A DNA stretch of 64,000 bases from Thuidium tamariscinum. Lineage: Eukaryota; Streptophyta; Bryopsida; Hypnales; Thuidiaceae. Position numbers and translations under genes: made by a program. Each line of letters opens with the position of its first letter. Within the stretch, counting starts at the first letter, position 1. This document shows positions 12,530 to 59,219 of the stretch, piece after piece. The stretch spans positions 2,666,001 to 2,730,000 of the forward strand of contig OX344753.2 in NCBI GenBank assembly GCA_947034885.2, given 5' to 3'. Under the pieces are notes generated by a model, which saw nothing but the letters and a program-made list of their open reading frames with translations, did no database searches and was not told the origin of the DNA.

Positions 12530-12532
12530 CTA

Positions 12533-20085: not shown

Positions 20086-20134
<49 letters not shown>

Positions 20135-26905: not shown

Positions 26906-26970
26906 CGTCACGCAAATTCATCGGGTGTTGGGTAAGAGCATCCCCATGCCTGCTCTTCAAATTCCACACT

Positions 26971-27199: not shown

Positions 27200-27224
27200 C
27201 CATTCCAGACCATTGATCCTCTTC

Positions 27225-27413: not shown

Positions 27414-27532
27414 TGATAAGGAAGATCTATGGTCCAAAATGTTTAAAGTGTTGCTTTAAAGTGAAGCCATAGAGATGCTCTAAGCCAGGAGTGGAGTAGG
27501 TTGTGAGAAATATGAGGTGGTGGAAATTTTTC

Positions 27533-35550: not shown

Positions 35551-36486
35551 TTAACCCCTAAAGCCCTGAATAATGTTTTTTGAGATTATAAATTTTTTGG
35601 GCAGCTCACTATGGATAGAGTTTGTTTTTTTTTCTTTGAAATTTTGATACAATGTGTGCCCGAGGAGTAGCTTTAAGGCCCGACAATTTTCATAACTTTT
35701 GACTTCACGGTTAAAAAGTTATGGCAAGATATGCTATTTTCTTTACTCGACGGGCAGTCCGGGCAGCTGAAAAAACTTTTTAAAAAAAAGTGAAATTTCA
35801 AATTGATTCTTTAGGTTTATATAGACATGGGAAGCTTTGAATAAATCCATTCCGATCAATGGGTCAAAAGTTATGAAGATTTTGAGTTTGGGATAGTTTG
35901 CGGCTAGTTATAGAATCTCTACAGTACAAAAAAAGTTTGAAACTCTTCATTTAATTCAATTTTTCATATTTTTGAAAAAAAAACAAAAACAGAAGGTGTA
36001 GATTGTTTATTACAACATTTTAACCATTGGGATTGAAAATTTTCAATTCCATGAATAAAATGTTCACAATTTAGTATTTTGGCTCATTTTTTACATCTTT
36101 CTACTTACTTATTTTTTCCTATATGTTGTACAATTCCAAATGGTTTGAAATTTTTTGAGAATGTAGCCAACTTGCACTGAAGTATGAATTCAAAGAGTAA
36201 CCACCATTTTGAATTTTTTTTCACACAAATGTGACCTTGTAAAGTGCTGTTGCCCGAATTTTTGTAGGGATAAAAAAACAATTTTTGTCAATTCAAATGC
36301 TTATATCTTGCAATCTACATGGTGGAAATTTCTGAAATTTTTTTCACATGTTTAGTTGTTTACAAACCAGCTTACTACAAGATCCTATGGTTACATGAGT
36401 CAAAAATAAGTTTTTAAAACAAATTGCACTTTTGCACAATTGGAGTATTTTTGGTGAAAACATAGTCAAAAACCTTTAGGGGTTAA
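35551..36486 (+). mobile_element. Full-length TTAA-type element, subfamily A (936 bp)
   Basis: The left end is TTAACCCCTAAAGCCCTGAA; the right end is CAAAAACCTTTAGGGGTTAA. TTAA occurs at both borders and no further duplication lies outside. The internal order matches 58265-59219 in inverted orientation: GGGCAGCTCACTA, GTAGCTTTAAGGCC, CATAACTTTTGACTT, CTTGCAATCTACATGG, ACAAGATCCTATGG, GGTGAAAACATAGTC. No ORF of useful length is present, so it is non-autonomous. The TTAA-CCC architecture matches piggyBac termini (family knowledge); no transposase is seen here to confirm it. Confidence 0.8.
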
Positions 36487-37923
36487 ACTGCGCTACTTCA
36501 AATGGACCACCCCATCTTAAGTACAAACTCTTTGTCAAGGTAGGTTGCTCTAAGACCAATCGTGGTTACATTTCCATCCAAATATACTATTCCATTCATT
36601 ATAAAAGCACCAATAAAAAAATGTCCACAACACCTTATTGTTAAATTTTGATGAAATTGGATTGGCATTGGTTTCATATCAACCTTCCTTACTTTATACA
36701 ATGTTGGAGATTCCTATATCCAAATTCTTCTTTAGCAATATTTCATTCAAAAAAAAATAAGATTTTCTTGCAAGGAATATTGGACAACATATTCCACTAT
36801 TTTCAATTGAAATTTGTTACATATGTCACCAGCGTTTGTAAAACTGGCGATAATGCGCCAGTTTTTTACAAAAAAAAAAATGATACTAAACGCCCATAGT
36901 GCAAAAAAATTTCCAATTTTTTTTTGAGCCAGATTCTTGATTGAACTTGCCCCTCGTTCGTCCCATGGACGAGAAGCATACATGTCCGTTAGCTAGGACG
37001 AAATACCTACGCTCGTTCGTTGTCGCGCTGGCGTTCCCCTAGTTGTCGATCAATCGCGTTGGCGGCGAGATCTGAGTCGCTCTTTTAGTAGGTAGGGTTT
37101 GGGGCGGACGCGACGAGTAACGTCCAGGTTTAGCTTGTGTTCCTCCTCTCAAGGTTTTTGAGCAACACTCATTCGCATTAACTCCTCTCCTTCATGGCGC
37201 ATTTACTCCCTGCTTCGCTCGAGATTCGTGCCTTGAGTGCATCTCTTTGATTCGCTTTTGAAATTGGTATCTCTCGCCAATTTCAGTGTTTGAAACTCGG
37301 AATTTGAGCGCACCACTTCTGGCTTGTTGTGAAGATTTGGAGGCTGGCTTACAAACTACGCCCAATGCCTCTTGCATTCATGGCACTTCTGAAATGGAGG
37401 CTCGATTCAATGTGATTCTTGGGTTCAAACTTCAGAGGAGCTGCAGAGTGTAGCAGACTACATTCTGGATTGGAAATTATTGTAGGGAGCTATTGCTCAC
37501 AACGGTGGATTAGCGTCATTGCGTCACTGCGCCATCGAAGATCTTCACGGCCTCACGGTGGAATTTAAGGACCGTCCGGGTTCTCACTTTCCCATCTGTG
37601 CGCCTTTTGCTTACAATCGTGCCATTGTGTATCCGTGATCTTCTACTCTCATGTGCATCTTGTGTTTGCAATAGTCTAATTGTGTATTCTCTGTGCATGT
37701 TGAGCCGATCTGCCGATACTGTGATTGTGTGTTTTTCTATGCATCTTGTGTCGATACTCGATAGTGTGATCGATCAGTCGTGCATTCTTATGTGTATCTT
37801 GTCCCGATATTGTGATCGTGTAGAAATAGATTTCTGTGAACCACCTTGTGTTGCTCTTCTCAATTGCACGCTTCAATTATAGATCGGTTGATTGTAGTTC
37901 ATTGTTGTTGTTCTCTTGCTCTC
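36487..37923 (+). other. Flank and 5' region of the hAT transposase pseudogene
   Basis: After about 100 bp of AT-rich DNA there is a hairpin (GTAAAACTGGCG...CGCCAGTTTTTTAC, 36839-36868). GC content rises from about 36940. The stretch 36940-37923 is probably the leader or promoter of the transposase gene. I could not identify the element's terminal inverted repeat or its target duplication. Confidence 0.4.
37615..37832 (+). repeat. Degenerate ~46-bp minisatellite in the hAT 5' region
   Basis: A unit like TGTGATTGTGTG, then TTTTTCTATGCATCTTGTG, then TCGATACTCGATAG recurs about 4.5 times with drift (GCATCTTGTG at about 37652 and 37741; related CATGTTGAGC and TATCTTGTCC). It lies just before the transposase start codon. 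Confidence 0.55.
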
Positions 37924-40900
37924 ATGGCGCCACGATTGAAACTTCCTGACAACTTCAGAGTGCGGGCATTTGGTTCCAGCCGAAACACTGACGGTATTAG
38001 AAAGTACATTGTGCGTAGCCGCACAGATGATGAGGGAGACTTGCCCCTGCAAGTGACGGGATGCGAGGTAACACACGTTTCTGAGACGCGCTTGTCTCAA
38101 TTGGTTTTCCCACTTGTAATGCGTGATCCGCCTTCTGAGGACACCGTCGCATCACCCCTGCCTTTCGATCGCACGTCAGATGCAAGCAGTGATGGTGAGT
38201 ACTGTGAGACGGGGAAGAAGAAGAGAAGCAGTTCCAAGAATGCGCGGAAGAGGCGGAAGACAGCTGCAGGGACCGTGACGAGGCGTTGGCAGGAGGTATG
38301 GGCCTGCAAGTTCTCATGGGCGCAGGCAGAATTCGACTCCAACGAACACTTATCTGGGGTCGTTTGCCTCAGTTGCAATGCAATCTCGGGAAGGAAGAAA
38401 GTTTTGGTACCGAAGGCCGACAATCTAGAAAAGCACGAGGGAAAACGGACGTGTACTGAAGATGGCGTTCCATTTCCGCACTTGAAGAAGGGCGAGAGAT
38501 TTGTGAAGAGTGACTGCAAGCACACCAAGAATACGAAGCTTTGGGCAGCGAGGAAGCATGCCGGCACTATAGCCGATCAACTAACGGCAACCTTAGAGAG
38601 CGACTTGAAGCGGAAGGGAGTGCAATTCTCAACACTTTTCCAAATTCTTCATTATGGTAGACCGATGTGTGATTATGAGCGCCAACAGTTCTTGCTTAGG
38701 CACTTGAAGGTCAAAAACTTGCCTTCAAAGCATTGGTCTGAGAGTACCGGATGGGAAATGAGTGAACATATTTATGCATCTGTTCTAACCGCCTTGAAGT
38801 GCGTTGTGCAGTCAACAACAGTTATCTCGATTAGTGCCAATGAAGTGACTGCGATCGACAACACAAGCTGGGTCGGGGTCCATGTCTATACGATGGACGG
38901 TTGGGAGAGGAAACCACACTTACTGCATTTGTCTTGCCTTGCAGATGGCGACACAGTTGATAATCTTACTAGTATTATTATGCATGCATTGTTAAATGAG
39001 GGTGGCTTGTCTTATGAGGATATTGCTTCCAAACTGATTTGCTTCGGAGCTGATGTTGTCAGTACATTCCAGGGTCCGAGAACTGGGGTCACAACATAGA
39101 TCCGTGAAAAATGGGTTCCTTTCACTTTAGGGGCATCATGTATGAGTCACAGGTTGAATCTTGTTGTGGAGACTTTGTCGAAGTATCCTATGGTGAGTCG
39201 GCTAGAAGGCCTTTTCCAGTCCATATATTCATATTTTTGCCGCTCTAACAAGCGTCATTCTGAGTTGCAAAAACTTGCAAACCTCATGGAAACTAAGGGT
39301 AACAAGATGGTCCACAATGTGGAGACGCGCTGGATCTCCATGAGGAGTCCAGCCCAGCGCATCATGGAGGAGTACAAAACACTACTTGTGAAAATGGGTA
39401 TTGACATGACTGGTGCTCCTGGCCAGAAACCTCATACACGAGTGGGTGACATTTTTGACTTGCTTGCGGACCTAGAGGTCTTACTCTCCTTGGTTTGTTT
39501 CATTCCCTTGGTGAATTGTGTGCATTGTCTCATGAAACTGTCTCAAGCTCGGGATATATTTGTATGCGATTTCATGAGTGCTGTGAAAGTTTGTCAGGGC
39601 GAGCTGGCCAGGCTTTTCATTGACAGTTCCAGTGCTTACAATGAAGTGGACTTCGTAACATACCGCAACTTGGTTTCTTTGCAATGCAAAGATATCCCCA
39701 TGTAGTGGAAACTGTTGCCTGGGGACTCCGGCATCGCTCACCTTTTGTTCGATTTTGGCGGCCCACATGTGTATGGCCGCAGCCACGATAAATTGACGGG
39801 GCAGCATATATTTGTTACACAGCAAGATTTTCATCGACTACAAGATAATATCGAACGTCAATTCTCAGGTATGGCACTTCTATCCCCATTTTTTTTTCTT
39901 CGATTGATTTCATTTTGATTTCCAATTTTTTTTCCTTTCATGTTTTGCTTTATTGCAAGTGCAACTTACATGTATTACTTCTTTCATTACTTGGAGGTTT
40001 CATGTCTCATGTTCTTCCTTAGTTGTTGGTGGTTGTTTGCAGGTTAGGTCTCATGAGCTTGGGCTGTGAGGTTTCATGGTCAGATTAGACTCTGAGGTCC
40101 GATTATAAGCTCCTCGCATGGCTTCGGATCAGCTGTTGGTTTTCCAATCCAAACCTTGAACTTGGAAACTTCGAACTTGTGGTTTTGCAGTTGAGGCTTC
40201 CGGCCTTGGGAACTCACGGATCGAGCTACAGTCCTTGTAGACTGAGGATTCTGATGTCACAAAGTTCACGAAGTTGCAATCGCTTGGGAGTTGGGAGTAC
40301 TGGCTTCCACTTCGTAGCTTCCACATTCCCTTCTAGACTTGAGGATTACATTGAGCTTCCAGTGGCTCTAAGCTGCTATGAGTATTGGTATTTCTCTTTG
40401 CTCTTTACCGTACTTTTGGATTTCATTTGTGTTGGGATTTGTGTGTACAAACATTGCACAATCACTTGTCGATGAGTTGGACCGTCGATTCCCGCAGCAA
40501 GACCTTCTCAATGCTTTCGGGATAATATATCCGCAGTATTGGAGGCAGGAAGGGGCAGAGGCCACTTTCTCACAACACTTGGCCATTCTCAAACAATTTT
40601 ACTGTCAAGCCCGACTTGTCAACAAAGGCCATGCTTCAGATGAAGGTGGTGAATCGTATACTGTACCTGCCATGCTTGATGCTTCAAAGTTGGACTTACA
40701 GCAAGCTCTTTTCAAGGTTACAATGAAAGCAAGCTGTGAAGCCGCTTGTGGCCCACCGTTGCATGTGTACCCGGTTATGAAGCTGTGGCGCAGACTATCA
40801 CAGTCCCGCCACTTGTGTAAGCTCATTTCTGAATACTTCAAACTTGCAGAAATAGGGTGCTGTCTTGTACTTGGCTCTGTAGAGGATGAGAGGTGTTTCT

Positions 40901-41070
40901 CAACTTTGAAATTCCTCAAATCATGCCATAGAAATAGACTTGACAAACACCTTCCCCTTGTTGTCCGAATGTTTGGCCAGCAGTATTTCTCTCTACAGAA
41001 TTTTCCTTACAAGGAGTCGATCAATTCTTGGAGGAGTGCTGTGAAGGTTGGACGGCAAGGGGATTTTTGA
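37924..41070 (+). pseudogene. hAT-superfamily transposase (BED-like zinc finger, ZNF862-type), inactivated
   Basis: Reading starts at the ATG at 37924. Residues about 75-117 are acidic/basic low complexity with a nuclear-localisation-like KKKRSSS..KRRK. A BED-like finger follows at about 118-180 (W.ACKFSW, VVCLSC, H..KRTC). The hAT catalytic core shows the first Asp in VYTMDGW, the second in ICFGADVVSTFQG, then CMSHRLNLV and ETRWISM. The C-terminal dimerisation domain (hATC) lies at about 40800-40960 with SVEDERCFSTLKF. The frame is broken by an in-frame TAG at 39097-39099 where related proteins continue, and by a second TAG at 39703-39705. Past 39868 (a GT donor context) about 580 bp are not conserved before coding resumes at about 40450. 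This gap may be an intron or an insertion. The stop is at 41068-41070. The copy appears recent, because coding similarity is otherwise intact, but it cannot make full-length protein. Confidence 0.85.
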
Positions 41071-41997: not shown

Positions 41998-42650
41998 AGA
42001 CAACCGGGTCACAGTCGTTCATCGAGTGCCGGCAATGCCGGCAGATTCCGTAACGAACGGCAGGCCGCCAGACAAACCAACTGCCGGCCGCCGGACTGAT
42101 GTAAGCGATTGGCATGCACTCCTGCGAGTGCAATCTACGAAACTCCCACGAAATCAAGCTTCTGCCCAATTCCGCATTCCAATGCTCCTGCTCAGACACG
42201 CTCGAACTTACAATTGCCGAAGAAGTTTCTTTGCTTTGCAAGTAGGCTAGCGCGCATGCATGGAGCTTGTCGCTGGAAACTCCGTCGCTGTCGCAGCCAC
42301 AGATGCAGCCGGAGCCAGCCGCGCAAGCTGTCGCCGCGGCGCACTACTTCGCCTCGCGCGTGACGGCCTCCTGCGGACGGATGTGACCGCGAGCATCTCT
42401 CTGATTTGGAGCAGAAGCTCCTGCAAGCGCCCCAACGGGTGAGGTCGCAACTCGATCTACCAGATACTCACCTCTCGTTTGAAATTACCTTGTGGTGGCA
42501 AGTTTCCGGTGAATTTGCAAAGTTGGGTTCAATTGTACTAAACTTCACTCAAGTCAAGGTTGTCATTGTTATCGAAAGGAAAAGAGAAAAGTCGCTGGTT
42601 ATCCTGGTTTCTTTTGTATGTTGGAACTTCACATCTTTCATGGGTACGTA
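41998..42650 (+). pseudogene. Decayed tandem copy of promoter + exon 1 of the downstream gene
   Basis: The block matches 43402-44060 nearly end to end: the CCGGGTC.CAGTCGTTC start, the AATCAAGCTTCTGCCCAATT leader, the coding exon and the following intron start. The start codon is kept at 42260. An extra base directly after ATGGAGCTT shifts the frame relative to the downstream copy. A deletion also removes most of the Ala-rich stretch. The frame as it stands would give an unrelated 60-residue peptide. It therefore looks like the inactive member of a local duplication. Confidence 0.7.
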
Positions 42651-42794
42651 AACTCTGGGGAAAGTATCCAGAAAACAAACCAATTGCAAACAACTATACA
42701 AATTTACACTTGAGCCTGGCGGGGCAAGCAAGAGTATATTTCTGTACCCTTGCTCATGAAAACTTCCACTCTACAACTCGATCACAGTTGACTA

Positions 42795-43094: not shown

Positions 43095-43401
43095 TCACAC
43101 AATTTGCCATGCACGCACACAGAACAAGCCTTCTTCATGACATGCGTTGGGCACAATAAAACTTCCCCTTTGAGCCTGCGATTCCTTGATTTCAACTTCA
43201 CCCAAATTTTCACAAACTTCAATCAGTCATACCCTGCGAGACAAGAGGTCGACATCAGAATTGAAACAGGAAACGGTTCCGAACCAGAGTGCCAGATGTT
43301 GCACTCAGTGTTATCAAAGTTCCCATCCCCTACATTGGAAGTGTAAGAGTCTTCCACCGGGTCCCATAAAAAACAAAACTGCTCTCACCATCACAGACCA
43401 C

Positions 43402-44060
43402 AACCGGGTCGCAGTCGTTCGTCGACTGCCGGCAAAATCTGCGGATTCCAGAGCGTCGTAACGGACGTGACGAACGGCAGGCTGCCAGACAAACCAACCG
43501 CCGGCCGCCGGACTCGTGCAAGCGATTGGTATACACGTATGAGAGTGCAATCTTCTTACGAAACCCCCACAAAATCAAGCTTCTGCCCAATTCCGCATTC
43601 CAATGCTGCTGCTCAGACACGCTCGAACTTATAATTGCCGACTTCAGAAAGTTTCTTTGCTTTGCAGGCAGGCTCGCATGGAGTTGTCGCAAGAAACTCC
43701 GTCCTCTTCGCAACCGCTGACGCAGCCGGAGCCAGCCGCGCAAGCTGCCGCTGCGGCGCACTACTTCGCCTCGCGCGCTGCGGCCGCGGCTGCTGCCGGT
43801 CTCCTGCGCTCGGACCGCGAGCGTCTCTCTGATTTGGAGCATAAGCTTCTGCAAGCGCGCCAACGGGTGAGGTCGCAACTCTACCATACTCACCTCTCGT
43901 TTGAATTTCCCTTGGCTTGCGCTCGCAAGTTTCCGGTGAATTTGCAAAGTTGGGTTCAATTATACTAAACTTCACTCGAGTCAAGGTTGTCGTTGTTATC
44001 AAAAGGAAAAGAGAAAATACTGAAAAGCCGCTGGTTACGTTGGTTTCTTATATGTACTAG
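43402..44060 (+). repeat. Second member of the tandem duplication (intact copy)
   Basis: Paired with 41998-42650 at a distance of 1.4 kb. It contains the leader and first coding exon of the four-exon gene, and the first ~190 bp of its intron (GAATTTGCAAAGTTGGGTTC shared by both). Confidence 0.75.
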
Positions 44061-46819
44061 AATTTCATATCTTGAAGTGGGTTTCTAGAGCTTTTCTGGT
44101 AGTTGATGTTGCAGGTTTGAAGGTTTGAAGTTGCGCCAAATATAGTAGAAATCAGTTGATGTTTTATGCACCTGATAATGTATGTGGATGGACGTTTTGC
44201 CGGTGTCGCACGCAGAGATTGGGAAAGAATCTGTGAGCCATGTTGAGATTGGTATAGCAGAGTTCTGACAAGGTGCACAAAAGCATTAATGAGAATAGTT
44301 GCTTTGGATGTGAAATTTCAAGGCAATCAAATGGCACAAAGTTTGCTTGTTTTGAAACAATGTCCAGCAATGACAATGCAAGCAAAGCCATGGAGAATAT
44401 CTTGCGGTCATTACCCTCCCATGGCTTGGTTTGCATTGCCATTTCGGAGGGCAATCAGAACCTTAAAATTGAACTGGGAATTGCCATAAGTGATGTCGTC
44501 AGTATGGAGATCTCACTTTGTGGTGCTGCGGGAGAGCCAAAGTACACAGATGAATCTCTTATGCAGTCACGCAAAATGGGAGGGTGTAGTTTAGTAATGA
44601 AGTCTAGACAACCCCAATTCTGATTCAAATATGAGTGGCCATCGAGATTTTGCCAATTCATTCGAACACCCAACTTGCGAATTGAGGGCAACTGAGTATT
44701 ATTTGGAGCAGATGAATTTCTCTTGAATCAAGAGATTGGACTAGTTCCCTAATGATTTTTGTCTCCTCCACCTCTATTGCTTGATAAAGATCAGAGAGCA
44801 AAAGCTTCGCATTCACAGATGTTACATGTCAGGACATCCCATTGAAAAGTGAGGAAGCGCTATACCATTACAGTCTCTAGTAGTGTGTAAATATGATAAG
44901 AACTCATTGTAGAAGCCCTCTTGGTGATTTTGGTGATTTGTTGTCAATTTACACCAAAGTAATAGACCATGCACTCAGCCCTTGGAACATACATAGTAAA
45001 ACTTTGGATGAAATCACCAAAAAACTTCAAATTAAAAAAAATCTTGGATGAAATCACTAGATTGTGGATGAAAATAAAATTATGGATACATGATATGTGC
45101 TAAAGTGATACTTTTCTATCCAATAAGTGGATGAATGTTGAAATTTAGAGCACCATTTAACATCACCACTTTGGCAATTCATAGAAAATAAAAATAAAAC
45201 ATTCAAAAAAACGTGCTCTTGATCAGTAAGCCATATGTGCTTAGATTGGCTCTGGGGTTGGGTGGAGAATGCAGTTCCAGGACTTGAAAGAGGAGAAATG
45301 CAAAGCCAGCAGCAAGGTGGAGCACCCACGCAATCTCAAATTGTTAAGTTCATCTGGTTTAGGTCAATCTGATTGCTTTCAATCAATTGTACTCATCTTT
45401 TAGTCAGGGTAAAAGCCAACAACTGGGTAACACAATTAAGTGAGGTCGAGGGACCGAATTTCGGGAATTTTGTTCATAAAATCTGGTGTAAAAAAATTGA
45501 ATTTTCGTAGTAGTGTAGGAAGTAGTGTACAATATGATGCCAAAAAAATCTACAAATAACACAGCTGAGGTGTTCCTTGTGAAAGCAAGAATGTCATTGA
45601 CGGATCACGGTACATTTGGATTTGGGAACTCAATGAGGTCACAACGTTCTATGTCTCTGCGCACCTTCCTTCGCAGGGTTGTGGATGCGGATGCTGCTCG
45701 CATGGGTATGTCCGCTCTCGTGACCAGAAAGCGACCAGCATGTAAGCAATTCGGTATTCGGTTTTGAATCCATGCGAAAGCTTACTCCACTTTTCCTTGC
45801 AATTACTCCGGTTGAGGAATCAGTACTATTCAATTATATTGTGGGTTCAAATATCTTCACACAAAGTGTACCGATTTATCTCCACAGCTTGACAATTTTG
45901 AGCTACTGTGTCCAGACCACAATCCTTAGGATTCTTGTAGACAATGTTCCTCTGTTGTGGGTTGCCAAACTGGGCTCCCATTGAGGTTAAGAATCTAGTA
46001 TTTAGGGTTTTGCTACTCACTCTTACAATTGCAGTGGACCGGACTCGCGGAGCGTTTCCGAGACCTCGCATCTCCCACCGAAGAAAGCGGCAGGCGGGCG
46101 CCAGCACCTTACGAGATCATCGGTACAGAACCTAAACCCTAATTCACCCGCCATAGGTGGATGCATGTCACAAAGCATGCAGTCCGTAGATCGATCGATC
46201 GTTCCAACTATTGCAGTTCCCGCATTTGAATGTGACAGTGATAGAATCTACAGTCAAACCTTTTTTTATTGTGATGACCGTCGCTAAGATGGCATCGTAG
46301 ATTCATATCTTGCACAACATTTGTTACATTTGTTCAGGGTTTAGGGTTGCAGATACAATCTACACTCGAACTTCTTTATTGTTATGACCTTCGTTAGATG
46401 ACATCGTAGATTAATATCCTGCACACATTGCTGTTGGGTTTAGGCTTGCAGACGGAATCTACACTCAAACCCTGTTAATTGTTATGACCTTCGCTAGAAT
46501 GGCATCGTAGATTATTATCTTGCACATATTGCTGTAGGGTTTCAGGCTTACAAATAGATTGCATCGTACATTAGTATCCTGCACCCATTAGCTAAGGGTT
46601 TAGGGTTTTAGGGTTTTAGAATTGGGAGCCTAGCTGGTCCGAGGAAAGAGGTTTGAGTGTGCGAGCGCCTACTTATCCCGTTGTTCGATGGACGCGTTTT
46701 GTTTTGTCTGTGGGAAGGTGAAATCCCTTTCTTCTCAGGACACCAGCACGATGGGCGCTGAGCACAGCAATGCCGAGGGGCTTCTGTTGGCTGTTGACAA
46801 ATTTCTTTCCATGAAGTAA
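43678..46819 (+). CDS. Predicted four-exon gene, 161 aa, unrecognised
   Basis: Proposed coding exons: 43678-43866, 45570-45705, 46035-46122, 46747-46819. All junctions are GT-AG with compatible phases (0, 1, 2), total 486 nt to TAA. Exon 1 starts MELSQETPSS and is Ala-rich, then turns into a heptad-like helix (RERLSDLEHKLLQARQR). Exon 2 is Ser/Arg-rich (SMRSQRSMSLRTFLRRVVDA). Exon 3 is very basic (RPRISHRRKRQ), and the last exon ends AEGLLLAVDKFLSMK. I recognise no family. Exon 1 and the last exon have the clearest coding character. Exon 3 could instead be read in another frame (TGLAERFRDL...), so the model is provisional. Intron 1 is 1.7 kb and holds another open frame. Intron 3 holds a minisatellite. 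Confidence 0.45.
44360..44623 (+). other. Unrecognised ORF (87 codons) in the proposed intron 1
   Basis: ATG at 44360 to TGA at 44621-44623; the frame is open upstream to about 44273 without an ATG. The translation is balanced (ENILRSLPSHGLVCIAISEG, KIELGIAISDVVSMEISLCG) but matches no family I know. It may be an extra exon, a separate small gene or chance. Confidence 0.2.
44700..45520. other. Intron-like / intergenic sequence
   Basis: AT-richer DNA between the open frame at 44360-44623 and the proposed exon 2. A short CAG-bounded, GT-terminated stretch at about 45270-45313 could be a micro-exon but cannot be tested here. Confidence 0.3.
46240..46605 (+). repeat. Minisatellite, ~105-bp unit, about 3.5 copies, with telomere-like motif
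   Basis: Units begin GAATCTACA.TCAAACC at about 46242, 46354 and 46455. They continue TTGTTATGACCTTCGCTAGA, TGGCATCGTAGATTAATATC and TTGCACA.ATTGCTGTTGGG, and end in GGTTTAGG.TTGCAGA. A partial unit closes at about 46585 in AAGGGTTTAGGGTTTTAGGG. It lies in the last intron of the predicted gene. Confidence 0.75.
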
Positions 46820-47225: not shown

Positions 47226-50200
47226 GAGACCAACCTATTACCACCCTGATTTGCAATCTGACTATCTTGGTAACCAATTCCAAGAGGGACACATATTTTT
47301 CAGAGGTGTGTGCATGTTTCACAAATCAAATGCAAGTGGAATTATAATTTTCTGATCAAAATTGTAATTTTTGTGAATTTTTGAAGTGTTCAACCCTAAA
47401 TTACAAAAGCACCCAATATCTAAGGTCATGAACACCCTAATAACAATCCATAACCACCTTCTTATGTCCTGATAAGCATCAAGGTATTCACCAATCACCT
47501 ATTGCCATGGTACTCTAAATGACATAAATGCATTGATTTTGTTAGATTTCTATACATAATTGGTTCATTTTTGGACAGCTTTGGATGGTGGAATGGATGG
47601 AAATGGGGCCAAATATAAGATGATAGAAATGTTTTTATAAGACTTGAAATTGAATGGCAAGGCAAGGCAAGGCAAGAATCCCAACCCAGCTTCAAGAATG
47701 TTTAATCTTGCACATGTTTTGGAATGCGTTATAAGACATGAAAATAAATTTCTAAAGTCCCAAGGCCTTTTTTCATTAAAACCAACTCCAAACCCTCATT
47801 TGGAGGGGTGCTATTATGTGAGTCTAAAAGTGTAAGCCCATAAGCCTAAAAAATTACATACCTATGGTATAGGTATCTATAGTATAGAAACTTTCTGTAA
47901 TTATAGTGCAACTATACTATAGATATCTATATTATAAGCATTTATGTCATAATCATCATCAATGGTTGTTGTATATTTACTTATTGTATATACATGCTCA
48001 AGGTTCACATGTTTGCATCTTCACACTCACATACTAGCATTTTTGTTGCCATTTCTATTGCAAAGAGCAAAAAGCTTTACAAATTGTTATTTTTGCATAG
48101 GATCTTGTAGGAACAACAATTTGTAAAGCTTGCACTAGTCTAGTATAAGAATATGTGAAAGAAATTTCAAAAAATTTCACTGAATAGATTGCAAGATAAT
48201 TGCTCTCAATGTGAAGAAAAGAGTTTTTTGAGCATGTTTCATGACTAGATTATTTCATTTTGCACTAAAATTTATTTCACTTTCACTTTGGCTAGATTAA
48301 AATTATTGCACAAACATTATGATTAAGTACTAGAAGTTGGTACAAGATTGAAGGAAAAAACAAATTGTCAATAGCTTCAAGATGGAATTGAAACATACCA
48401 ATCCCAACATCGAGATTGCTACAACAAGCATCTTTTAGCACTACAACCTTGGGCTTGATTACCATGGAAATCATTCTTTTTGGTACCTTGGAAATCAATT
48501 GCATAAAAAAAACCCAAGAGCACTCATTGGAGGTCAAACTATTGTACAAGACCTACCCTTCTCATACCAAATTTTAGGAATGAACATCAACATAAACTTG
48601 TCTTTTACATAGAATGATTCTTCATCATCCATTCAACACTTTAGGCAAGTATGTGGTTATAGGGTTTACTATGGGAAATTATTTCAAGTTGTTAACATTG
48701 AGTTCAAAAACAAATTTATGTCATTATTTTGTCAAAGAATGTCTATGATTGCTCACAATATAAAAAACTCTATAACTATCACATTACTAATCCAAATGCA
48801 ATGAATCAAAGCATCACATTTAGATAAAAACATAACCTATGGAAAAAATTATTAAAAGAATCAATTTCAAATTCTCGTAGAATTTTTTTGTTGCTCAGTC
48901 TCCTCAATTTTGAGCTTATTTTAGTATGATTTTCTTTTGCTCCCAAGACATTGATTGAAATAAAACATTATACTTCTAGAAAGCTAATGTGCTTTTCTAA
49001 TTTAAGAAAATATTTTGAAAATCTTGCCAAGAATTTAGATTACACATGCCTAACCAAAATTTATTTTGTCCCTATAGAGAATGTGGGACTTTAGGACTTT
49101 TGCAAAAAATCATGTCATGAATTGAGGTTACATGAGCCTAACTAAAATCCATATTGTCTCCGAAGGGGAATGTAGGACTTTTGGGATTAACCCTAGGATG
49201 ACATGGGAGTCTAAAAGTATCCAACAAATGACACATAATACTTCAATGTAAGACAAAATTGTAGATGATCATCCTTTGGAATTTTGTGTGTAAAGGAGAG
49301 ACCCAATATAATAATTTAGCTTGTGATGATTATTCTTGGTATGTTTTAAAGCAAACATTTCACATGGTACCCAAAAGGATGATTTCCAAGTTGACCAATC
49401 CCAACGTTTCAAATTACGGGTTAATGGCAGTGCTAGTCACCTACTTATGATTGTCATCTAGTATAAGTTTTAGAATGCTTCATAATTGCATTCGTAGGGT
49501 GCAATAAAAAGAACATTCTTGATCATTCATTGATGACAAATTTCAAAATATTGTGTAAGTTGAAATCTAATAGCAATGTGTCATTTTGGAATGCTTCAAA
49601 ATTAGAAAGCATTAATTATGTTCAATGAAAAGCCTCCATGATGAATTCATGTAGGGCAATCAACAAGGGAGAGAATTTAAAAAAAAAATAAATAGGCTGA
49701 CAAGGAGGGCAAAGCTTGACAAGGAATGCCTACTTATTTTCAAATTCCCAACAACAAAGAGATTACCCAACACAAATGCCCGCCTAGAAATGGATGAATG
49801 AAAAATACATGATGGACGAATGAAAAATATGTGACGGAGGAGTATCAGTGATCCCAAAACTAGTTTATGGAATTAGTGCAATACGCTACCCTCCAAGCCC
49901 AACTGGCATCAACTTTGGCTACCTTGAGAGTGAGTAGTACCAAAATAAAATAGAAAAGGAAGGATTTTGTAAGTTGAGAAGGATTTTGGGGAGTAATGTA
50001 ACACAAAACTGATTGAAGCGATGCTAAATAATTCCATCAGGGAGGAAGTTGCGAATTCACTATTAAATTTTATTGTTTGTTGCAGTTTTGGCTAAAATGT
50101 CTCCATTGAAGGCCCTTTTTTACAATGTACTAGTAGCACAAGGATTTTGTAGGTAGAAATCCAGTGAAATTTAGCCAGTTTTGGGAAACACCGACAAGTA

Positions 50201-50359
50201 CAAAATCTACAATCACTGATTACGCAGATTTCACATGCTAAGACGGGGGATTACATGACAGGAAATCATTCATTCTCCCACGAAATGAGTGGGCCATTTC
50301 GTGGCAGGGATTCCACGACCCTTATTATACCACCAGTGAGAGAGAGACAGAGATTGAAA
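47226..50359. other. AT-rich intergenic DNA
   Basis: No gene recognised. Features: an AAGGC pentamer run at about 47655-47677, and a 25-bp inverted repeat built on CTATAGTATAG/CTATACTATAG at 47855-47940. At 48090-48200 there is a patch sharing the 'GATCTTGTAG ... AGATTGCAAGATA' phrases of TTAA subfamily A. Confidence 0.45.
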
Positions 50360-50660
50360 TTACAGATATGAAATCATGATATTTCCTCTTGCCAACTGAC
50401 AATTTGCTGGGCAATCGAGGAGGAGGATGAAGCTCTCCGCTTGGCTCCCTTTGTCGGTGATCCTCACACAGCGCCTTCCTTCAGTTGGCTTGGACAAGTT
50501 TAGGATTCGCAAGGACCACCGTCCTCGTGGGGCTGCCGCCTGCTGGAGAATGAGACAACTGCCTGCGTTGCCTCTGCGATGGAGTGAGTGTCCTTGGGTT
50601 GCAGGCCATGCTAAAATCATCCCACAATTGACAATTGAAAGGGAGACACCAGCCACATAA
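50360..50660. other. GC-richer patch with unassigned open frames
   Basis: Two overlapping minus-strand frames (50360-50656 and 50481-50663) and one plus-strand frame (ATG 50427 to 50660) are open. Composition is gene-like and sharply different from the surroundings, so this may be an exon remnant or retrogene fragment. No recognisable domain. Confidence 0.2.
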
Positions 50661-50843
50661 CATTCAGTAGCAGCCTGTCACACTGCTTCCTACAGATGAA
50701 ATGGTGTGGAATATTTCACACCATTCAGTAACTAAAGTTGCAAACTTCAAGAAATGTCAAATGAAATTAGGTGATGGGGACTTCACAAAGGGAAAGGTAG
50801 TTCTTCTATGGGCTGCTAAATGTTATGTAGGAGGGTGGATTTA

Positions 50844-50986
50844 GGGGTGTTTCACATTACGGCCATCCAAGTTGAGAGGCTGTCGATTCCACCAATCAGA
50901 TTTTAGAAACCATGATTTTCACCAATCAGATTTGAGAAAACCATGGCCTCTTGACTTGGACGGCCATTGATAGTGCGAAACACCCC
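50844..50986. mobile_element. Tourist-like (PIF/Harbinger) MITE, 143 bp
   Basis: The left end GGGGTGTTTCACATTACGGC and the inverted right end GGGGTGTTTCGCACTATCAA form the terminal repeats, continuing inward through GGCC.TCCAAGT..AGAGGC. TTA flanks both sides (50841-50843 and 50987-50989), the PIF/Harbinger target duplication. Inside, CACCAATCAGATTT is tandemly duplicated (50897 and 50920). Confidence 0.85.
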
Positions 50987-50989
50987 TTA

Positions 50990-52780
50990 CTTTTGTTGGG
51001 AAAAGCGTAGGAAGTTTTTATTTGCATCACATGATTAAGGTAGCCGACCTATTTCCAATCACTTCAGCAAGTACGTAGAGTTAGAGTGCACTTTTTTCTT
51101 ATTGCAAAATGTTTCCCATGTATGAAAATAGAGTTTGGAAGGATAGCATATTTTTTGCTAGAATTTTATTACACAAAGCATGATTACTATGAATTTTTTA
51201 GTAGAAGATTCTTTTGGACCTATAATGATAATAGAGACCTTATTGTTTCTGACCATAAGCTGATTGCATTTATGAGAGCCTTACAACCAATCCTAATGTG
51301 CCACAATTGTTCCGGGAGCTACACCACAACTTCATAAAAAGGAAACAAACTATAGATTGGAAATAGGGGGGTGATTGGAAATGGGTTGGCGGCCTTAAAT
51401 TTGCAAATTTTGAATTCGTATTTGCAATCATAGACCCCATAATATGGACAGTGGAAAGGCAGACATTGAAAAAGGTGTACTATAGGGACCAAAAAATTAA
51501 AGGGAATTATTATAGAAAACTTTAGATCTTTGAAAAATGATGTAGAGCCTCCAAACACTTTTGATCAGTAACTGTTGATGTACATGAAAAGTAGATATTT
51601 TTAGAGGGTGGAATGTTGATTAGTATTAGTATGGGTTCCTTTTAAACCGCTATTCAGGGTAGAAGAAGTTAAGAACATATTCTAATCACACCTCGATATA
51701 GGGGGCTTTTTTTACTTTTACCTCAGAGAATACAAAATTTACCTTTGTAGTTTGATTGTAGTAGAGGGACCCATAATTGATCAAATAAGCACATTTGAAC
51801 ATGATGTGGGGCAGTGCAAATACTATTAGAGGTGCATTGAAAGAAATGATGGGGATTGCAAAAAATTTGGTAATTTTATCTCTTGAATTGAAACTACCAT
51901 GAATTTTAAAAGGCAAAAGTTGGGCTTGCCCTATGACCATGATAACCCCTACTTGAGGTTATCAAAGTATTTTTTTCTTGTAACTAACCACTTATAAGTT
52001 CATCCCGATTCTTTGTGAGCATCCATTGCTATAGAGTCATCTATGAACTAAGGATGGAGACTTGGACGTCTTATTTGTGTTACAATTTGAAAGCCACCCT
52101 ACTTTGATAGCTATGTTTCAATACCCAAGGTACATTCTAGACTTCCCAATGTCCTCCATTGACACATAGTAGTTACAAAGTAGTTCAAACACTCACAAGT
52201 GCAAATAGGGGCTCTTACCTTACTTGACTTCCAATAGGAATGTCAAAGGTGACACTCACTGTAGTCAACAGTGAAATTAATTTGCCCCTAGACTCGGCCT
52301 CACGAATTCTTTAACATTTTACACGATATGAATGTTTATTATTACTATACAAGAATGCAATCATTTTTCATTGTACCAACAATGTACCGATTTCAAGAGG
52401 TGGTGGTCACTTTTCCCATGACCACTACATCTCAACTTCAAAAATTCATAACTAATTCCACAAAGGTCCAAAAACTACAAAATGACTTGAGTTCAATGCC
52501 AATTTTTATTTTGGGTTTCATAACATTCAATAGCATGATGTGGCTCCGCCTTCTCTCTACAATGAAGGATGTGGCATATCTCATACCCAACAGCCTCTCC
52601 ATCCTCTACATGTCTACTTACATCAACAGTTACTGATGAAACACTGTTGAGGGGGTTGAATAGTCCACACCCTCCATTGTTGAGAGAAAGGCAGAGCCAA
52701 CCAATGCTACTGAATGTTATGTTCCTCATAAAAAATTCACTGAATTTTTGTTCTGTTCGAAAGGACGGAGTTTTATCAGC
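50990..52780. other. Intergenic DNA with repeat fragments
   Basis: 51085-51215 resembles the left part of family G (ATGAATTTTTTAG.AGAAGAT). 51390-51440 resembles 56477-56520 (TTGCAAATTTT.AATTC.TAT). 51767-51805 resembles 57647-57680 (TTGATCAAATAAGCA). A GATAACC...GGTTATC hairpin is at 51942-51964. No gene recognised. Confidence 0.4.
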
Positions 52781-52782
52781 TA

Positions 52783-52853
52783 TCTTCTTTTTTTTTCTTC
52801 TTTTTCTTTTTTGTCCTCTTCTTTTTTCCTCTTCTTTTTTTTTTGCTTTTGAA
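52783..52853 (+). repeat. Polypyrimidine (T/C) tract
   Basis: About 70 bases of almost pure T and C. The Lys-rich frame on the opposite strand is an artefact of it. Confidence 0.85.
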
Positions 52854-52899
52854 AGGCAATCTGCTTTTCAATGGCTGCTTTACTGAGAGCAGCGGGACT

Positions 52900-53329
52900 A
52901 CCTTGATTTCACTCACTTCTGTTGTACTGTTTGTGTACTTCGAAAACCCATGCGCCACAGACCATTTCTCCCAATGCATGTGGGCGTAGAACCTGCTTGC
53001 CTCCCTGGGGGCCTTTCCCTTTGTCAGTGCCCATTCCTCCAGACTCTGCCCCCTCCCCTCCCGTCCTGCCTTATCCTATCATGCACTGCCAAACTGAAAC
53101 CATGGATTCAACTTCACATGGGCATGTCCGCCGTCTGATCAATAAATCACGACAAATCTCCGACACTCGCCCGGATGGCTCTTGGGAACAGGGTAAATTT
53201 CAAATATCCAATTCAACTCCTATTCCTGAGCGGCTGTACAAACTGATTCAACATTGCACCCTGGCCTAGCTAGGGAAAAAATAACTCAATAGTGGTCGAA
53301 GTCAAATAAAAGCAAAACGGAAAGTTATT
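52900..53329 (+). other. GC-richer patch with a 115-codon open frame
   Basis: The plus frame 52922-53269 passes through Cys/Pro-rich sequence and ends HCTLA. From the ATG at about 53083 it would give about 62 residues with STSHGHVRRLINKSRQISDT. No family recognised; probably non-coding. Confidence 0.2.
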
Positions 53330-53357
53330 GAGGCGGTGGGGCGGGGCGGGGCGGCCC
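53330..53357 (+). other. Potential G-quadruplex / G-rich box
   Basis: GGTGGGGCGGGGCGGGGCGG contains successive G-runs separated by single C or T, an unusually strong G4-forming pattern in this AT-rich DNA. Confidence 0.6.
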
Positions 53358-53389
53358 ATTTGGAAAGTGCATGCTTTCTCGTTCATAGT

Positions 53390-53835
53390 ATCCCCATGCT
53401 TGTACTTTAAGAGGTTTAAACACATTAATGTAGTGTGTTAGGGTTGCGGCATTGTCCTATGTCAAACACACCAGGCCAAAAAAAAATGGCTGGCCAAACT
53501 AAAAATAGGGACAGTACTAACAAATAGGGGGCTTGCATGTACCTTGTTATCTCCTCTGTTGTCCATTTGTGGCACACAATTCTCAAATTTGAACTCCTCA
53601 TCAGACAAGTAGCCACAAGATGATGAATTCATGGTCCTTTAGTTGGCTTGACAAAAGGTGGCCCCTTCGTGACGTGGCACGCGTACCTTCTTCATGGGAA
53701 GTATTTGGTGAGGCTTGGTACAATTTTGGTGTAGGGGAACCCTCGCGACAGAGGAGTGTGCCACTTCATAAATCTACACGAGATGCTATAGGATTGGCAC
53801 TTGGCCCCCCTACTTGGGGAGTAAGCCATGTGACC
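53390..53835 (+). repeat. Degraded relative of the 55023-55455 Harbinger-like MITE
   Basis: Shared order of blocks: ATCTCCATGC/ATCCCCATGC, AACATTAATGT, GCCAAAAAAAA, GGGACAGTACTAA, CCCCTACTT.GGG, ATGTGAC. The terminal GAGCATC motifs are mutated. Confidence 0.5.
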
Positions 53836-55019
53836 CCACAATTTGGCATAATTACCTTCACTAAAGGTTCTATATCATTAATCCCTCACCACCCACGCTC
53901 TGCCTCACCAGAGTAGCAACTTATAGAGACCACTGTAAGAATTCAACTTCCGCGTCAGATTGGTGTTCAATCGTTGTAATCCCACCGTATAGATTGAAAG
54001 ATGCTTTGCTTGGGGGGCTAGTGCCGCAAATAGCACTAATTTTCAAGGGTTCGATGTTGAGAAATTTGGGGGTAATGAGGATGGAAATTGAAGTCGCAGT
54101 CGCTTTGAGGGTTGTTTCCGAGTGCTTCAGAATTTGTGCCTGGCTGGTGGATTGGCAGAACTGCATGAAAATTCATGAGTCTGAGCGCCATACAGTGATC
54201 TTTGAATGTGCAAATTTTTACAGCATGCGCAGCATTGACTACAACGTTATACGAAATTGAAACCAAGAAGGGTGAGGGCCGGCGGAGAGGTGGCACCGAA
54301 ATGCACTGGCTACCACGTCAACAGAAAGGGCCGGGGAACTCCCGATCATAGTACGCCATGGCCTCCCCTCTGGACACATCCAAAGCCCAACAAACTGTGA
54401 CTGGTAATTGACGGTCACTTTCCGGACAGGAAGGACAAACGACTATGTCTGATTTTTTACATCTGTTGAATCACAGCCTTCTCACATACAATCTGTATCA
54501 CATCCACCGTTAACAATTGTGTAGCAACGTACGCAAAGACGGGCGCTTGCTCGTTTTGTAACCACAACCCAGGAATTCCTCCCTCAGTGCCGCCTGGATG
54601 CCGTTGTCTGATCCTGTGTGGACCGATTTGGTCACCTTGGGCGGTGAAGGGTTAATCTTCTCTGTTAGAAAAATTTCCTCCATTGATTTGCTTCATTGTA
54701 TTGTTCTGAAACTACTTTCAAGTAGTGCAACTAATGGGGCATCTCTCATCAAGGAGGGATAAATGTCACCAAGCGTGATTTGATAACTCACATGGCGTAT
54801 CATCTCACCTTGAAACTACTATTTTTTTCTCCTATACCCTATCATTGTTATTGGTAGCATGGTCAAATTTATTTTCTCATTTGCAAGTGTAGAAAGGAGG
54901 TTTTAGTGCACCAAAGATTGCAACATTTGGATATTGTATGCAAAAGTTATGAAGGATTGAATCAAAATGTTGTTTTTGGGAGAAATTCTCAAATTGTTTT
55001 TTACACCTAAATACACAAG
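53836..55019. other. Intergenic DNA with unassigned open frames
   Basis: 53994-54260 (+) is open for 88 codons. Its first ATG is at about 54054, and it contains an amphipathic stretch (MEIEVAVALRVVSECFRICA). It overlaps minus-strand frames and has no recognisable domain. A moderately GC-rich part (54270-54660) carries no identifiable gene, and the rest is AT-rich. Confidence 0.25.
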
Positions 55020-55022
55020 TAA

Positions 55023-55455
55023 GAGCATCTCCATGCCAATACTATAAAAGACAAGAAAACATTAATGTGGCATATCTAGCCTGTAGTACTATCCCATGCT
55101 AGATACACCAAGCTAAAAAAAACATCCAATAAACACTACAAAATAAGAAGGGCACTAAAATATTGGAAGTTTTCTTCTTGCCTCACTATCCCTTGTCTTT
55201 GTCCTTTCAAATCACACTCCCTTCATTGCTTGCATAGAATTCAATCAAACTCTCACTCTCTAGACAATCCAAAACCTTTTGAGGCCCCCACCTGGCCTGA
55301 CACTTATAATATGCTTGGCCCGAGGCATGCTTAGTAGGTGGATTTTCAGTTCAAGCATGGGGAGCCTCACAAATAGAGGACCTTGTGAGGTTGGAAACCC
55401 ACACCACAAACACCCCTTGGCACCCCTACTTAGGGTGTGTGACATAGGGATGCTC
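55023..55455. mobile_element. PIF/Harbinger-like MITE (433 bp)
   Basis: The left end GAGCATCTCCATGCC and right end CATAGGGATGCTC are flanked by TAA (55020-55022 and 55456-55458). Same family as 26936-27480. Non-coding. Confidence 0.8.
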
Positions 55456-55548
55456 TAAGTACATAATGATTTTGGAGATGTACCCAATATAGCAATGAAA
55501 GAGCAGTTTTAGTAGCAATGGCACATTTTGGGGTGTGCACTCTAGACC

Positions 55549-56358
55549 TTAACCCCTAACTGCCCCAGCGACCATATATGGTCGACCTGAAATTTCAGGC
55601 TCATTTCTGGATGGGCAGTTAAATTTCTGTGCCCGTTTTAAAAAAAAATTCGGGCAGTTTTAAGGGTTAACTATTGAAAACTTTCATTTTTTACTGAAAA
55701 AAGTACATATTTGATTATTGAAAGGTCTTCAAAGGCATACATGTACCAAAAGTGAAGTGTAAAGCTTGCCAATTTTACTTCATTTCCTAGCTTTATGCAA
55801 TTTCACTTAATTTGAGATCTAAAAAATTGTACATATCCATTCGCTTTGAAAATGGTCCCAATGGAAAGAGGAAAGTGTTTTCATGATATTCACCATTGAA
55901 AATTTAAACATACAACTATTGATTTGGAGTTATTTGCAATTTCTACTTATAAAAATAATTGCATTTCAACAATTGCAAGGTGGATTGTGTAATGAATTTA
56001 ATAGCTTTTCATATGAAATTAAGTTTTTTAGAAGTGCATTTTAGTGTGCTAACACTTTTTGTAGTTGTTCATGTCACCTCAAATCCCCAAAAAAATTTAT
56101 ATGCAAATTTGAGAAACATTGTGGGAAAAGGCAACATACTAAATATAGAAAATGTATTCTTCTCTCGTTATAATCTCACAACTCCAATGCAATTTTGTAC
56201 TCAAAATTTGTGTACTTACTAATAAACAAGCTTTTTAAACATCTATGAGGTTAGATTTTGAAAAAAAATCAATTTGCTTCACTAGGGATGACTACAAGTC
56301 CATGCACTTTATTCATAGTCAAAACACACTTGAAAAGGCTTGGGCATTTAGGGGTTAA
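55549..56358. mobile_element. TTAA-type element, subfamily D (810 bp)
   Basis: The left end is TTAACCCCTAACTGCCCCAG; the inverted right end is TTAACCCCTAAATGCCCAAG. TTAA is at both borders. Just inside the left end there are two palindromes, CGACCATATATGGTCG and CCTGAAATTTCAGG. An internal TTTTAAGGGTTAA at 55658-55670 could be the end of a 122-bp shorter element nested at the same left border. The 87-codon frame at 55959-56222 is background. Confidence 0.7.
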
Positions 56359-56407
56359 TTTCCATGCCAATTTGTTCTTCACAACAGGAATTTCCATGTG
56401 ATGACGC

Positions 56408-56625
56408 CTTGTCCTTGTGGGCAGGGAGAATTGACCCCCTCACTCGGCAATTTTTTTTTTCACACAATTTTCTTTTTTGCAAATTTTAAATTCATATTTG
56501 TGATCATAGACCTCTAATTAGCTAGGGGTCGAAGAAAGTAGGGGTGATCATGGCCTAAACTAGGGGGCATTTTGTTTTGATTGCACCTTTGGTAAAACAT
56601 GGTAAGGCCGAGCGAGGGGGTCAAA
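56408..56625. mobile_element. MITE with TTGACCCCCTC ends
   Basis: TTGACCCCCTCACTCGGC at about 56410 is inverted at about 56606-56623 (GCCGAGCGAGGGGGTCAA). The interior has GATCATAGACC and GGTGATCATGGCC. No clear target duplication. Confidence 0.5.
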
Positions 56626-57320
56626 CCACCTGGATTGTCCTTGTCCTCTTCTACTTGATTTTGAATTCCAACTCAAAGTCAAACCAAACCCACCACAAAA
56701 AGAAGGAAAAAAAAAACAGGGGGAAAAAAGTTGAAGATAAACCCATCAGGGTCCGTCCAAACGGTGTCCTTGTTGTCAACCTGCGGCTTGTTTTTTTTCT
56801 CCATTTCTGTTTGCGATGTCGCCCCCATAAGCAGACATCCCCTGCTGCATCGTATCCCCAAAGCCTGGTGGTATGTTTAACGTGTGCTAAAGCTTGCGCA
56901 CTTCCATCCAAAGCAGCACGGCCTTGTCTCCAAAAAAAAACGGAAAAAGAAAAGCAGCACGGCCCTCCCACCTCCATTTCATTTGTGTCCAAAAACTTTA
57001 ATCAAAAATAAAAAAAACAAAATTTTTAAAGGCAGCACGGCCCAACTTGGTCTGCTTCATAGCACTTCGCAGGCAAGCCAGAACGACACACTTCCAGAGG
57101 AAGTCAGAGAGAACCAATGGCACTGCCGTGCTAAGAGGTAATAAGTTCAATTTCTTGGCTTGCTTGCTCGACGGAAGGATGCGGGCTCGGGGCCCGAGAA
57201 AAACCCGTGGAAAAACTCACGGGTTCCCTGCCGAGCTCCGCTCAGCTAAGGTAAGGTAGAGATTGCAGCAATTTTGTTTGGCACTGTGAGATAACTTCGT
57301 TTCTGCAATCTGTGGCAGCA
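56626..57320. other. Intergenic DNA with four GCAGCACGG motifs
   Basis: GCAGCACGGCC occurs at about 56912, 56954 and 57032, and GCAGCACGGAC at 57317. The 144-codon frame 56577-57011 is Lys/Asn/Ser low complexity, overlaps antisense frames and crosses the MITE end. Not a convincing gene. A hairpin ACCCGTGG...CTCACGGGT is at 57208-57230. Confidence 0.35.
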
Positions 57321-58045
57321 CGGACCAGATGATGGCGGATACCTGGTCACGAGATGACATGCTGAGCGTGGGACGGCCAAGTGGATGGAAGCTATTTATT
57401 TTCTTTGTTTCATTTTTAAAAAAAATTGGACATGCACATCAGAAAAGTTGGGCCAGACTGTTTTGGTGCTATTTTGACACCATAGGCTGCATTTTGACAA
57501 TATAGGTGTCATTTTCTCCTTACTCAGTTGGTATGGGGGTTAGCACCAAATTTACTTGATTGCATTTCAATGCACCATCATGGCACCATATTCACATGCC
57601 GTGAAGTTCCCGATGCGGCACAATTTGTGATAGGGGAGGCGGGCAACCCATTTCTGATCAAATAAGCAATTGAGCATATAGTGGAAACACCCAAAACCGT
57701 CAGATTAAGCGATTCAGTATAGTAGGAGGTGTTTTCTTGTAAAATCAATATTTTATAGTATTAGCAAGTGGAAATCGTGAATATTAATAAATAAATAATT
57801 TCGGATGCAATATATAATTTCTATAAATTTTCAAAGTATTGGCTCCCTAGACCATTGGAATCGTCCTATAGGTGTCCCCTAAACTGAACTCTGTTGAAAT
57901 CAACTGTCAATGAATGAAAATTATACATGTGTCTTACAACTACATCAACAAATTAGAATTAAACATTTGTAGAACACTTTAATGAATGCTTATGGACAAA
58001 TTTAGTGATACTCTAGAATTCAAGAATGGGTACAGGGACAAAAAT
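57321..58045. other. AT-rich intergenic DNA
   Basis: Nothing recognised apart from the short similarity to 51767-51805 at 57647-57680. Confidence 0.4.
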
Positions 58046-58260
58046 GGGTGTTTCTACCTTACTTGGAGTATGGATATGTTGAGGAGAAAATATTCCTATA
58101 TACTGAAATACATTTGAAAAGGATTCCTTATTTTTTTTAGAATTTTATTTCCCAAAACAAAATTATCATGAATTTTTTAGGTGAAGATTTTGTTCATCCG
58201 GCATACTAGTGATATAGGTAATTCTATTTCCAACCAAGGGCAAGTTGTAAAACCAAGAGT
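58046..58260 (+). repeat. Repeat family G, left part
   Basis: Starts GGGTGTTTCTACCTTACTTG and matches 61150-61365 (AAAACAAAATTATCATGAATT, TTTTTTAGGTGAAGATTT). It abuts the TTAA element starting at 58265. Confidence 0.5.
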
Positions 58261-58264
58261 GCTC

Positions 58265-59219
58265 TTAACCCCTAAAGGTTTTTGACTATGTTTTCACCAA
58301 AAATGCTCCAAAACTGCCATTTCTAAAGCAAGTGCAAAATTTCAGAAAAAAAAAACATCTTTGAACATTTGTGACCATAGGATCTTGTATTACACTAGTT
58401 CAAGAAGATGTGGAAAAAATTTCAAAAATTTCCACCATGTAGATTGCAAGATATTAGTGTTTGAATTGTCAAAGAACCATTTCTTGACCCTATGAAAATC
58501 TGGACAGCTGCACTTCAATAGCTCACATTTATATGAAAAAATATCCAAAATGTTTGTAATTCTTTGGATTCATTCTTCAATTCAAGTTGGCTACATGCTT
58601 GAAAATTTTCAAATAATTTGGAATTGTACAAGATGTAGGAAAAAATAAATAAGTAGAAAGAAGTAGAAAATGATCCAAAATACTAAATTGATAACTATTT
58701 TATTATGGGATTGAAAAATGCCAATTCTGATAGTTGTAATGTTGTGATCAACAATATACACCCAATGTTTTTGTTTTTATTCAAAAATGTTAAAAATTGA
58801 TTAAAATAAATGACTTCAAAGTTTATTTTAGTGTAGAGATCCTATAAGTATCCATAAACTACCCACAAACTAAAACTCCTGTAACTTTCATCTCAATAAT
58901 CAAGATGGAATGATTCAAAGCTTTCCAAGTAGATAAAAATCTAAAGAACAAATTTGAAATTTGAAAATTCAAAAAAAATGATTTTTGAAGAAGTTTTTTG
59001 CTACTTGGGCTACCCACCGAGTAGAAAAAAATACATATCATACAATAACTTTTTTCACTATGTAGTCAAAAGTTATGAAAATTATTGGGCCATAAAGCTA
59101 CTCCTTGGACACATGCTTTGTGAAAATTTCAAAGAAAAAAAAATAAAAACTCCATTCGTAGTGAGCTACCCAAAATTGCTATGTTGCCAAAAAACACAAT
59201 TTGGTTCTTTAAAGGTTAA
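58265..59219 (-). mobile_element. Full-length TTAA-type element, subfamily A (955 bp)
   Basis: The left end is TTAACCCCTAAAGGTTTTTG; the right end is GGTTCTTTAAAGGTTAA. TTAA closes both borders, with no outer duplication. It is collinear with 35551-36486 in inverted orientation (GACTATGTTTTCACCAAAAA, AGGATCTTGTATTACACTAG, GTAGATTGCAAGATATTAG, TAAAGCTACTCCTTGG, CTCCATTCGTAGTGAGCT). Non-coding. Confidence 0.8.

Follow-up and report, generated by a model that had tools for sequence, protein, structure and literature searches.

Our analysis indicates that the window (the whole 64-kb stretch of DNA that was analysed) carries a set of short elements that are very probably non-autonomous MITEs of the piggyBac superfamily in a land plant, most of them old. 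This assignment is supported by their TTAA boundaries, by C-rich ends that are common to elements with unlike interiors, by one good empty site holding a single TTAA (that of element F), and by subterminal palindromes located at a fixed place on part of the ends. Twelve elements with TTAA at both ends were identified, ranging from 229 to 978 bp and summing to 7,680 bp, or 12% of the window. Two partial copies, I and J, and an unpaired end, N, at 8127 complete the set. Elements C, D, E, F, G, H and M were found by pairing TTAA sites with matching inward sequences, and K, L and O were added from family alignments and inspection. The features are listed below, with the strand where one was assigned.

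35551-36486, plus strand: element A, family 1, full length, TTAA to TTAA
58265-59219, minus strand: element B, family 1, full length, in the orientation opposite to A
34500-35247 (748 bp): element C, foldback of two inverted copies of one family-1 end
29884-30646, plus strand: J, family-1 copy, truncated and collinear with the beginning of B
19985-20406: I, partial family-1 copy with a decayed right end, TCAA where the others have TTAA
17961-18191: element K, ~240-bp family, right end TTAATTCTTGAAGGGG with a weak motif score
21734-21982: element L, ~240-bp family, weak left end
26971-27199: element F, ~240-bp family, nested in a Tourist-like MITE
49187-49424: element O, ~240-bp family, weak right end
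24408-25385: element H, palindrome GAGGACA-GAAAA-TGTCCTC after the left end
25914-26648: element M, palindrome CGCCAA-TTT-TTGGCG after the right end
33606-34398: element E, weak palindrome after the right end
53878-54655: element G, palindromes after both ends
55549-56358: element D, palindrome CGACCA-TATA-TGGTCG after the left end
8127-8166, plus strand: N, lone end TTAACCCCTGAGTGCC
27443-27446: TTAA of the empty site for element F, in the other arm of its host MITE
26902-26905: TTAA of the probable empty site for element M, in the right repeat of the adjoining inverted-repeat element

The first-pass annotation had listed part of this set, and E, G, O and the lone end at 8127 lie beyond its list. 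The separate subfamilies with the same TTAA-CCC ends that it placed at 17961, 25914, 26971 and 55549 were all recovered as elements, whereas the one at 21734 starts with TTAACCTTG and not with CCC. The copy that it placed at 25382 turned out to be the right end of H, which extends leftward from there. For the lone end N, no convincing partner was found within 8200-16000.

Family 1 comprises A, B, C, I and J. Aligned in opposite orientation with their 40-bp flanks included, A and B are identical at 776 of 953 aligned bases (81%; ~0.21 substitutions per site, K2P), and their likeness ends exactly at TTAA on both sides, with the alignment collapsing just outside. In agreement with the first-pass annotation, the two are thus inverted copies, and no consistent duplication beyond TTAA was observed, as between 0 and 4 of the 6 bases next to it match across the 12 elements. 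The description of the A and B ends as one sequence and its inverse applies to the TTAA-bounded ends with one correction, namely that the right end of B, TTAACCTTTAAAG, is an imperfect inverse. The further copies that had been reported at 19985, 29884 and 34500 correspond to the partial copy I, to the truncated copy J, which contains an unrelated insert of ~416 bp at about 30059-30474, and to the foldback C. The two arms of C are 97% identical (10 transitions and one transversion in 363 positions), and C is therefore either the youngest of those measured or homogenised.

The ~240-bp family includes K, L, F and O, with 66-76% identity in the four of six pairs that were aligned over their full length. 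The remaining elements, D, E, G, H and M, each occur once in the window and have the end motif in common and little else, apart from a 100-bp stretch of H that is 67% identical to B. Comparison of the interior sequences yields about seven groups. The divergence between pairs of different copies is 13-34%, and that between the two arms of C is 3%; the copies compared are mostly old. Element G has a GC content of 0.48 and 34 CpG, compared to 0.28-0.39 and 0-12 CpG for the other 11 elements, and may contain captured DNA or be of younger age.

We counted nine occurrences of TTAACCCCTAA over both strands, whereas 200 local dinucleotide shuffles gave a mean of 0.06 and never more than one. The shorter TTAACCC, present 19 times against a shuffle mean of 8.9 and up to 23 times in one shuffle, is not telling alone. 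An end-motif score of at least 9, using a motif trained on the ends of these same elements, was reached by 22 of 936 TTAA sides and by no side of ten other tetramers. When the motif was trained without the tested family and each end was ranked against 910 other TTAA sides, 13 of the 26 ends scored above all of them, and 23 had no more than six other sides above or level. The poor ends were the right ends of K and O and the left end of L (K3, O3 and L5), with 30, 24 and 53 other TTAA sides as high, respectively. The presence of TTAA in 26 of 26 ends is no independent count, because the ends were picked for it. As for the tips, 17 of the 26 ends start with CCC and 25 have at least two C among the first three bases; C occupies position 1 in 23 and position 2 in 23. 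Position 4 is C in 17 ends, T in 8 and G in 1, followed by T in 19, so that most ends read CCCC rather than CCCT. The plant telomere repeat is CCCTAAA, and we set aside its likeness to these ends as a presumed coincidence. According to the passage on piggyBac hallmarks in a study of coral elements, the superfamily is marked by TTAA duplications and by terminal repeats of 12-19 bp that carry CC[C/T]T at their tips (PMC2872659). The tips found here are piggyBac-like, short of this strict motif.

In six ends, a palindrome lies immediately inward of the end motif: the left ends of D and H (D5 and H5), the right ends of M and E (M3 and E3), and both ends of G (G5 and G3). The palindromes differ in sequence, and their middle is A/T-rich in most cases (not in G5), yet they are all centred 28 or 28.5 bases from the start of TTAA. 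The passages describing the left end of Trichoplusia ni piggyBac (LE35) place a palindrome at bp 17-33, bound by a dimer of the cysteine-rich domain (CRD) (PMC7351741), and we computed its centre at 28.5 on the same scale. To evaluate this position, 15 end groups were scored, covering 25 of the 26 ends, with C3 left out as a copy of C5. The mean log-odds at centre 28/28.5 was 13.4, the best of 82 centres (next best 9.3, median 7.0). In 20,000 draws from 900 other TTAA sides, which averaged 7.2, this value was never attained. The six carrying groups scored 16.8-31.9, and the other nine, with 0-11.5, lay around the control mean; leaving out D5 and H5 gave p 0.009. Our first measure, the plain fraction of paired bases, gave p 0.0004 against shuffles. 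As it placed centre 28 only third in its two-centre form and outside the top 12 in its single-centre form, we changed to log-odds, a measure chosen afterwards. The palindromes were noticed and tested on the same ends, and it is the T. ni position alone that was not fitted to these data. Carried at that position by six of the 15 groups, the palindromes appear to fit piggyBac. When the opposite ends of the elements were searched for a second occurrence of the same palindrome, an arrangement seen in T. ni piggyBac, none was found.

Element F provides the good empty site with a single TTAA. Its host, at 26936-27480, is an inverted-repeat element whose ends read GAGCATC and which has TAA on either side; we take it to be probably a Tourist/Harbinger MITE. 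The sequence made by joining the two flanks of F aligns to 27380-27487 in reverse complement, with 73% identity over 109 columns (E 2e-11), and the match holds one TTAA, with 42 bp to its left and 58 bp to its right. As a control, the flanks of 1000 TTAA pairs were joined, and hits of a query to its own locus with >93% identity were dropped beforehand; this replaced an earlier control of 300 pairs that was swamped by such hits (95 of 300). Seven of the 1000 pairs gave comparable hits, of which five were remaining overlaps with the own locus (one pair having been drawn twice), one was element L itself and one shares the left flank of L. Among the 12 elements, joined-flank hits were obtained for F and L. 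The case of L, whose joined flanks match inside A (70% over 96 columns), was rejected because A lacks the TTAA at this place and the matching stretch is rich in A/T.

Element M adjoins an inverted repeat of ~260 bp. This neighbour, at 26644-26906, is an element with 20-bp perfect inverted repeats, GTTAAATCAGTCCCACGAAG, and its TTAA is common to the right end of M. When the joined flanks of M were compared with the other repeat, 23 of 23 bases matched across the junction, only four of them to the left of TTAA, and two of the next four bases also match. We regard M as a weaker, supporting case.

The filled and empty sites also parse as TA duplications of an element starting with A and ending with T, as would be produced by a Tc1/mariner- or Harbinger-type transposase that duplicates 2 or 3 bp (TA, TTA or TAA) and strongly prefers TTAA. 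These groups are common in plants. We nevertheless consider such an origin unlikely, since TTAA is found at both ends of all 12 paired elements (which were, however, chosen with TTAA), the TAA-type MITE in the same window (26936-27480) has the quite different ends GAGCATC, and the palindrome position fits piggyBac. The TTAA duplication, C-rich ends and MITE-like structure proposed in the first-pass annotation all hold, and the empty site of F and the palindromes also favour the piggyBac superfamily.

With 229-978 bp, the 12 elements are too short for a transposase; two families have four to five copies each in the window. We found no Pfam match to the piggyBac transposase (PF13843) in six frames of 44001-57500 and 8127-12100, nor any piggyBac Pfam match among 20 selected ORFs, 13 of which lie outside these two regions. 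The Pfam scans returned only unrelated families, below the curated cut-offs, and Rfam gave no match at gathering scores. That no transposase was seen in the scanned parts of the window would also agree with an undescribed or other TTAA-using superfamily. Sola3, probably TTAA-specific, is one example. The C-rich ends and the palindrome position match piggyBac instead, and nothing here points to Sola3, the ends of which were outside the comparison; we judge this origin to be about as improbable as a Tc1/mariner- or Harbinger-type one. Kolobok MITEs are the least credible candidates. This superfamily likewise duplicates TTAA and, in the passages concerned, is reported from chlorophytes and rhodophytes with 5'-RR...YY-3' termini (PMC9587614), whereas none of the 26 ends here starts with two purines and C prevails at positions 1 and 2 (23 of 26 each).

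Under the piggyBac assignment, a transposase encoded elsewhere would grip the CCC(C/T)TAAA ends, with a dimer of its C-terminal domains gripping the palindrome next to the end motif. The element would then be cut out at TTAA, and its insertion into a new TTAA would duplicate those four bases. We infer this enzyme, its domain structure and its native action in the present plant lineage. The first-pass proposal that a TTAA-specific transposase has been active in the lineage is in this respect fairly drawn, with the reservations that no transposase was seen and that the copies compared are mostly old. It is an evenly balanced question whether this land-plant lineage has had its own long-lived piggyBac radiation. 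Such a radiation would comprise about seven MITE groups with a common end motif and a palindrome changed in sequence and not in place, as if successive transposases had switched CRD specificity, and, at 12% of the window, its products may form a major part of the genome.

Regarding the host, the ratio of observed to expected counts is 0.65 for CAG/CTG (block bootstrap 0.57-0.74) and 1.28 for TAG/CTA (1.21-1.35), with CpG at 0.52 in the window. CHG methylation leaves a loss of CAG/CTG towards TAG/CTA and is a pointer to plants. The depletion argues for a CHG-methylating plant host and supports the earlier designation of the DNA as plant, although without an identified gene. Several other features were noticed in the window. 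Interrupted ORFs on the plus strand at 37840-41070 resemble a hAT transposase, with a Pfam hAT dimerisation match of 14.0 bits that falls short of the 21.4 cut-off, and no PDB sequence was matched by the hAT-like ORF. A direct repeat (42000-42637 and 43400-44073; 80% identical, starts 1.4 kb apart) lies in the most GC-rich part of the window. The palindrome at 12319-12528, starting with ACTACAAGAGAAAGG, has two 105-bp arms that are 92% complementary, without a spacer, and long self-complementary stretches with arms ~66% identical occur at 61913-62564 and 60362-60735. Partly overlapping copies of one repeat are present at 6973-7342, 51113-51210, 57686-58237 and 61176-61351, and element B adjoins one of them.

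PiggyBac is known mainly from animals. Among the matches listed for open-licence papers, we found none that describes piggyBac or TTAA MITEs from a land plant. The repeat table of the fern Ceratopteris richardii gives 1,230 PiggyBac elements (122 kb), as counts in a passage that does not describe their structure (PMC6890710), and those of feather grass and pomegranate give one copy of 75 bp (PMC8319324) and zero (PMC9130716), respectively. Passages in other papers mention piggyBac in animals, fungi, protists and occasionally plant genomes such as red algae (PMC12732532), state without example that it is found in plants (PMC10813416, PMC10140906), or, in a review, count it among the plant superfamilies (PMC10794571). 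In view of these listings, any novelty here is one of host, structure and abundance, not of kind. The occurrence of abundant and varied piggyBac MITEs in a land plant would show how far the superfamily extends there. It would also prompt the question whether piggyBac was present ancestrally or arrived horizontally, and would indicate a plant as a native source of a footprint-free transposon. A palindrome of fixed place and variable sequence, should it be confirmed on further copies, would in addition allow elements of this type to be recognised and sorted without reference to a transposase.

Compared with known systems, the elements resemble T. ni LE35, as described in the relevant passages, in the TTAA target, the CCC start and the place of the palindrome (PMC7351741). 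Element C has two like ends, and the same source describes LE35/LE35 as inactive in cells with the native enzyme, a restriction that is relaxed with a hyperactive one (PMC7351741). The differences are that the palindromes here vary among subfamilies and differ in sequence from that of LE35, that the end is mostly CCCCTAAA rather than CCCTAGAAA, and that no transposase ORF was seen in the parts scanned. The unequal ends of D, H, M and E, with a palindrome on one side only (G has it on both), also recall T. ni piggyBac. The end of piggyBat, from Myotis lucifugus, starts with CAC and is different in sequence from the elements here. In the passage on its left end, a GCGGGA motif at bp 11-16 is followed at a distance of 3 bp by an imperfect palindrome with an A/T-rich middle (PMC11707139), the centre of which is by our reckoning at ~29, similar to the 28-28.5 observed here. 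The subterminal CRD palindrome has thus been described for the left ends of T. ni piggyBac and piggyBat and is no superfamily-wide rule. Finally, the coral CMITEs, in the parts of their description concerned, are likewise short TTAA elements of non-autonomous type, most of their ends reading CCCTT, and an allele lacking the element is described (PMC2872659); they are ~100 bp long with a conserved interior in an animal host, whereas the elements reported here span 229-978 bp and have unlike interiors.
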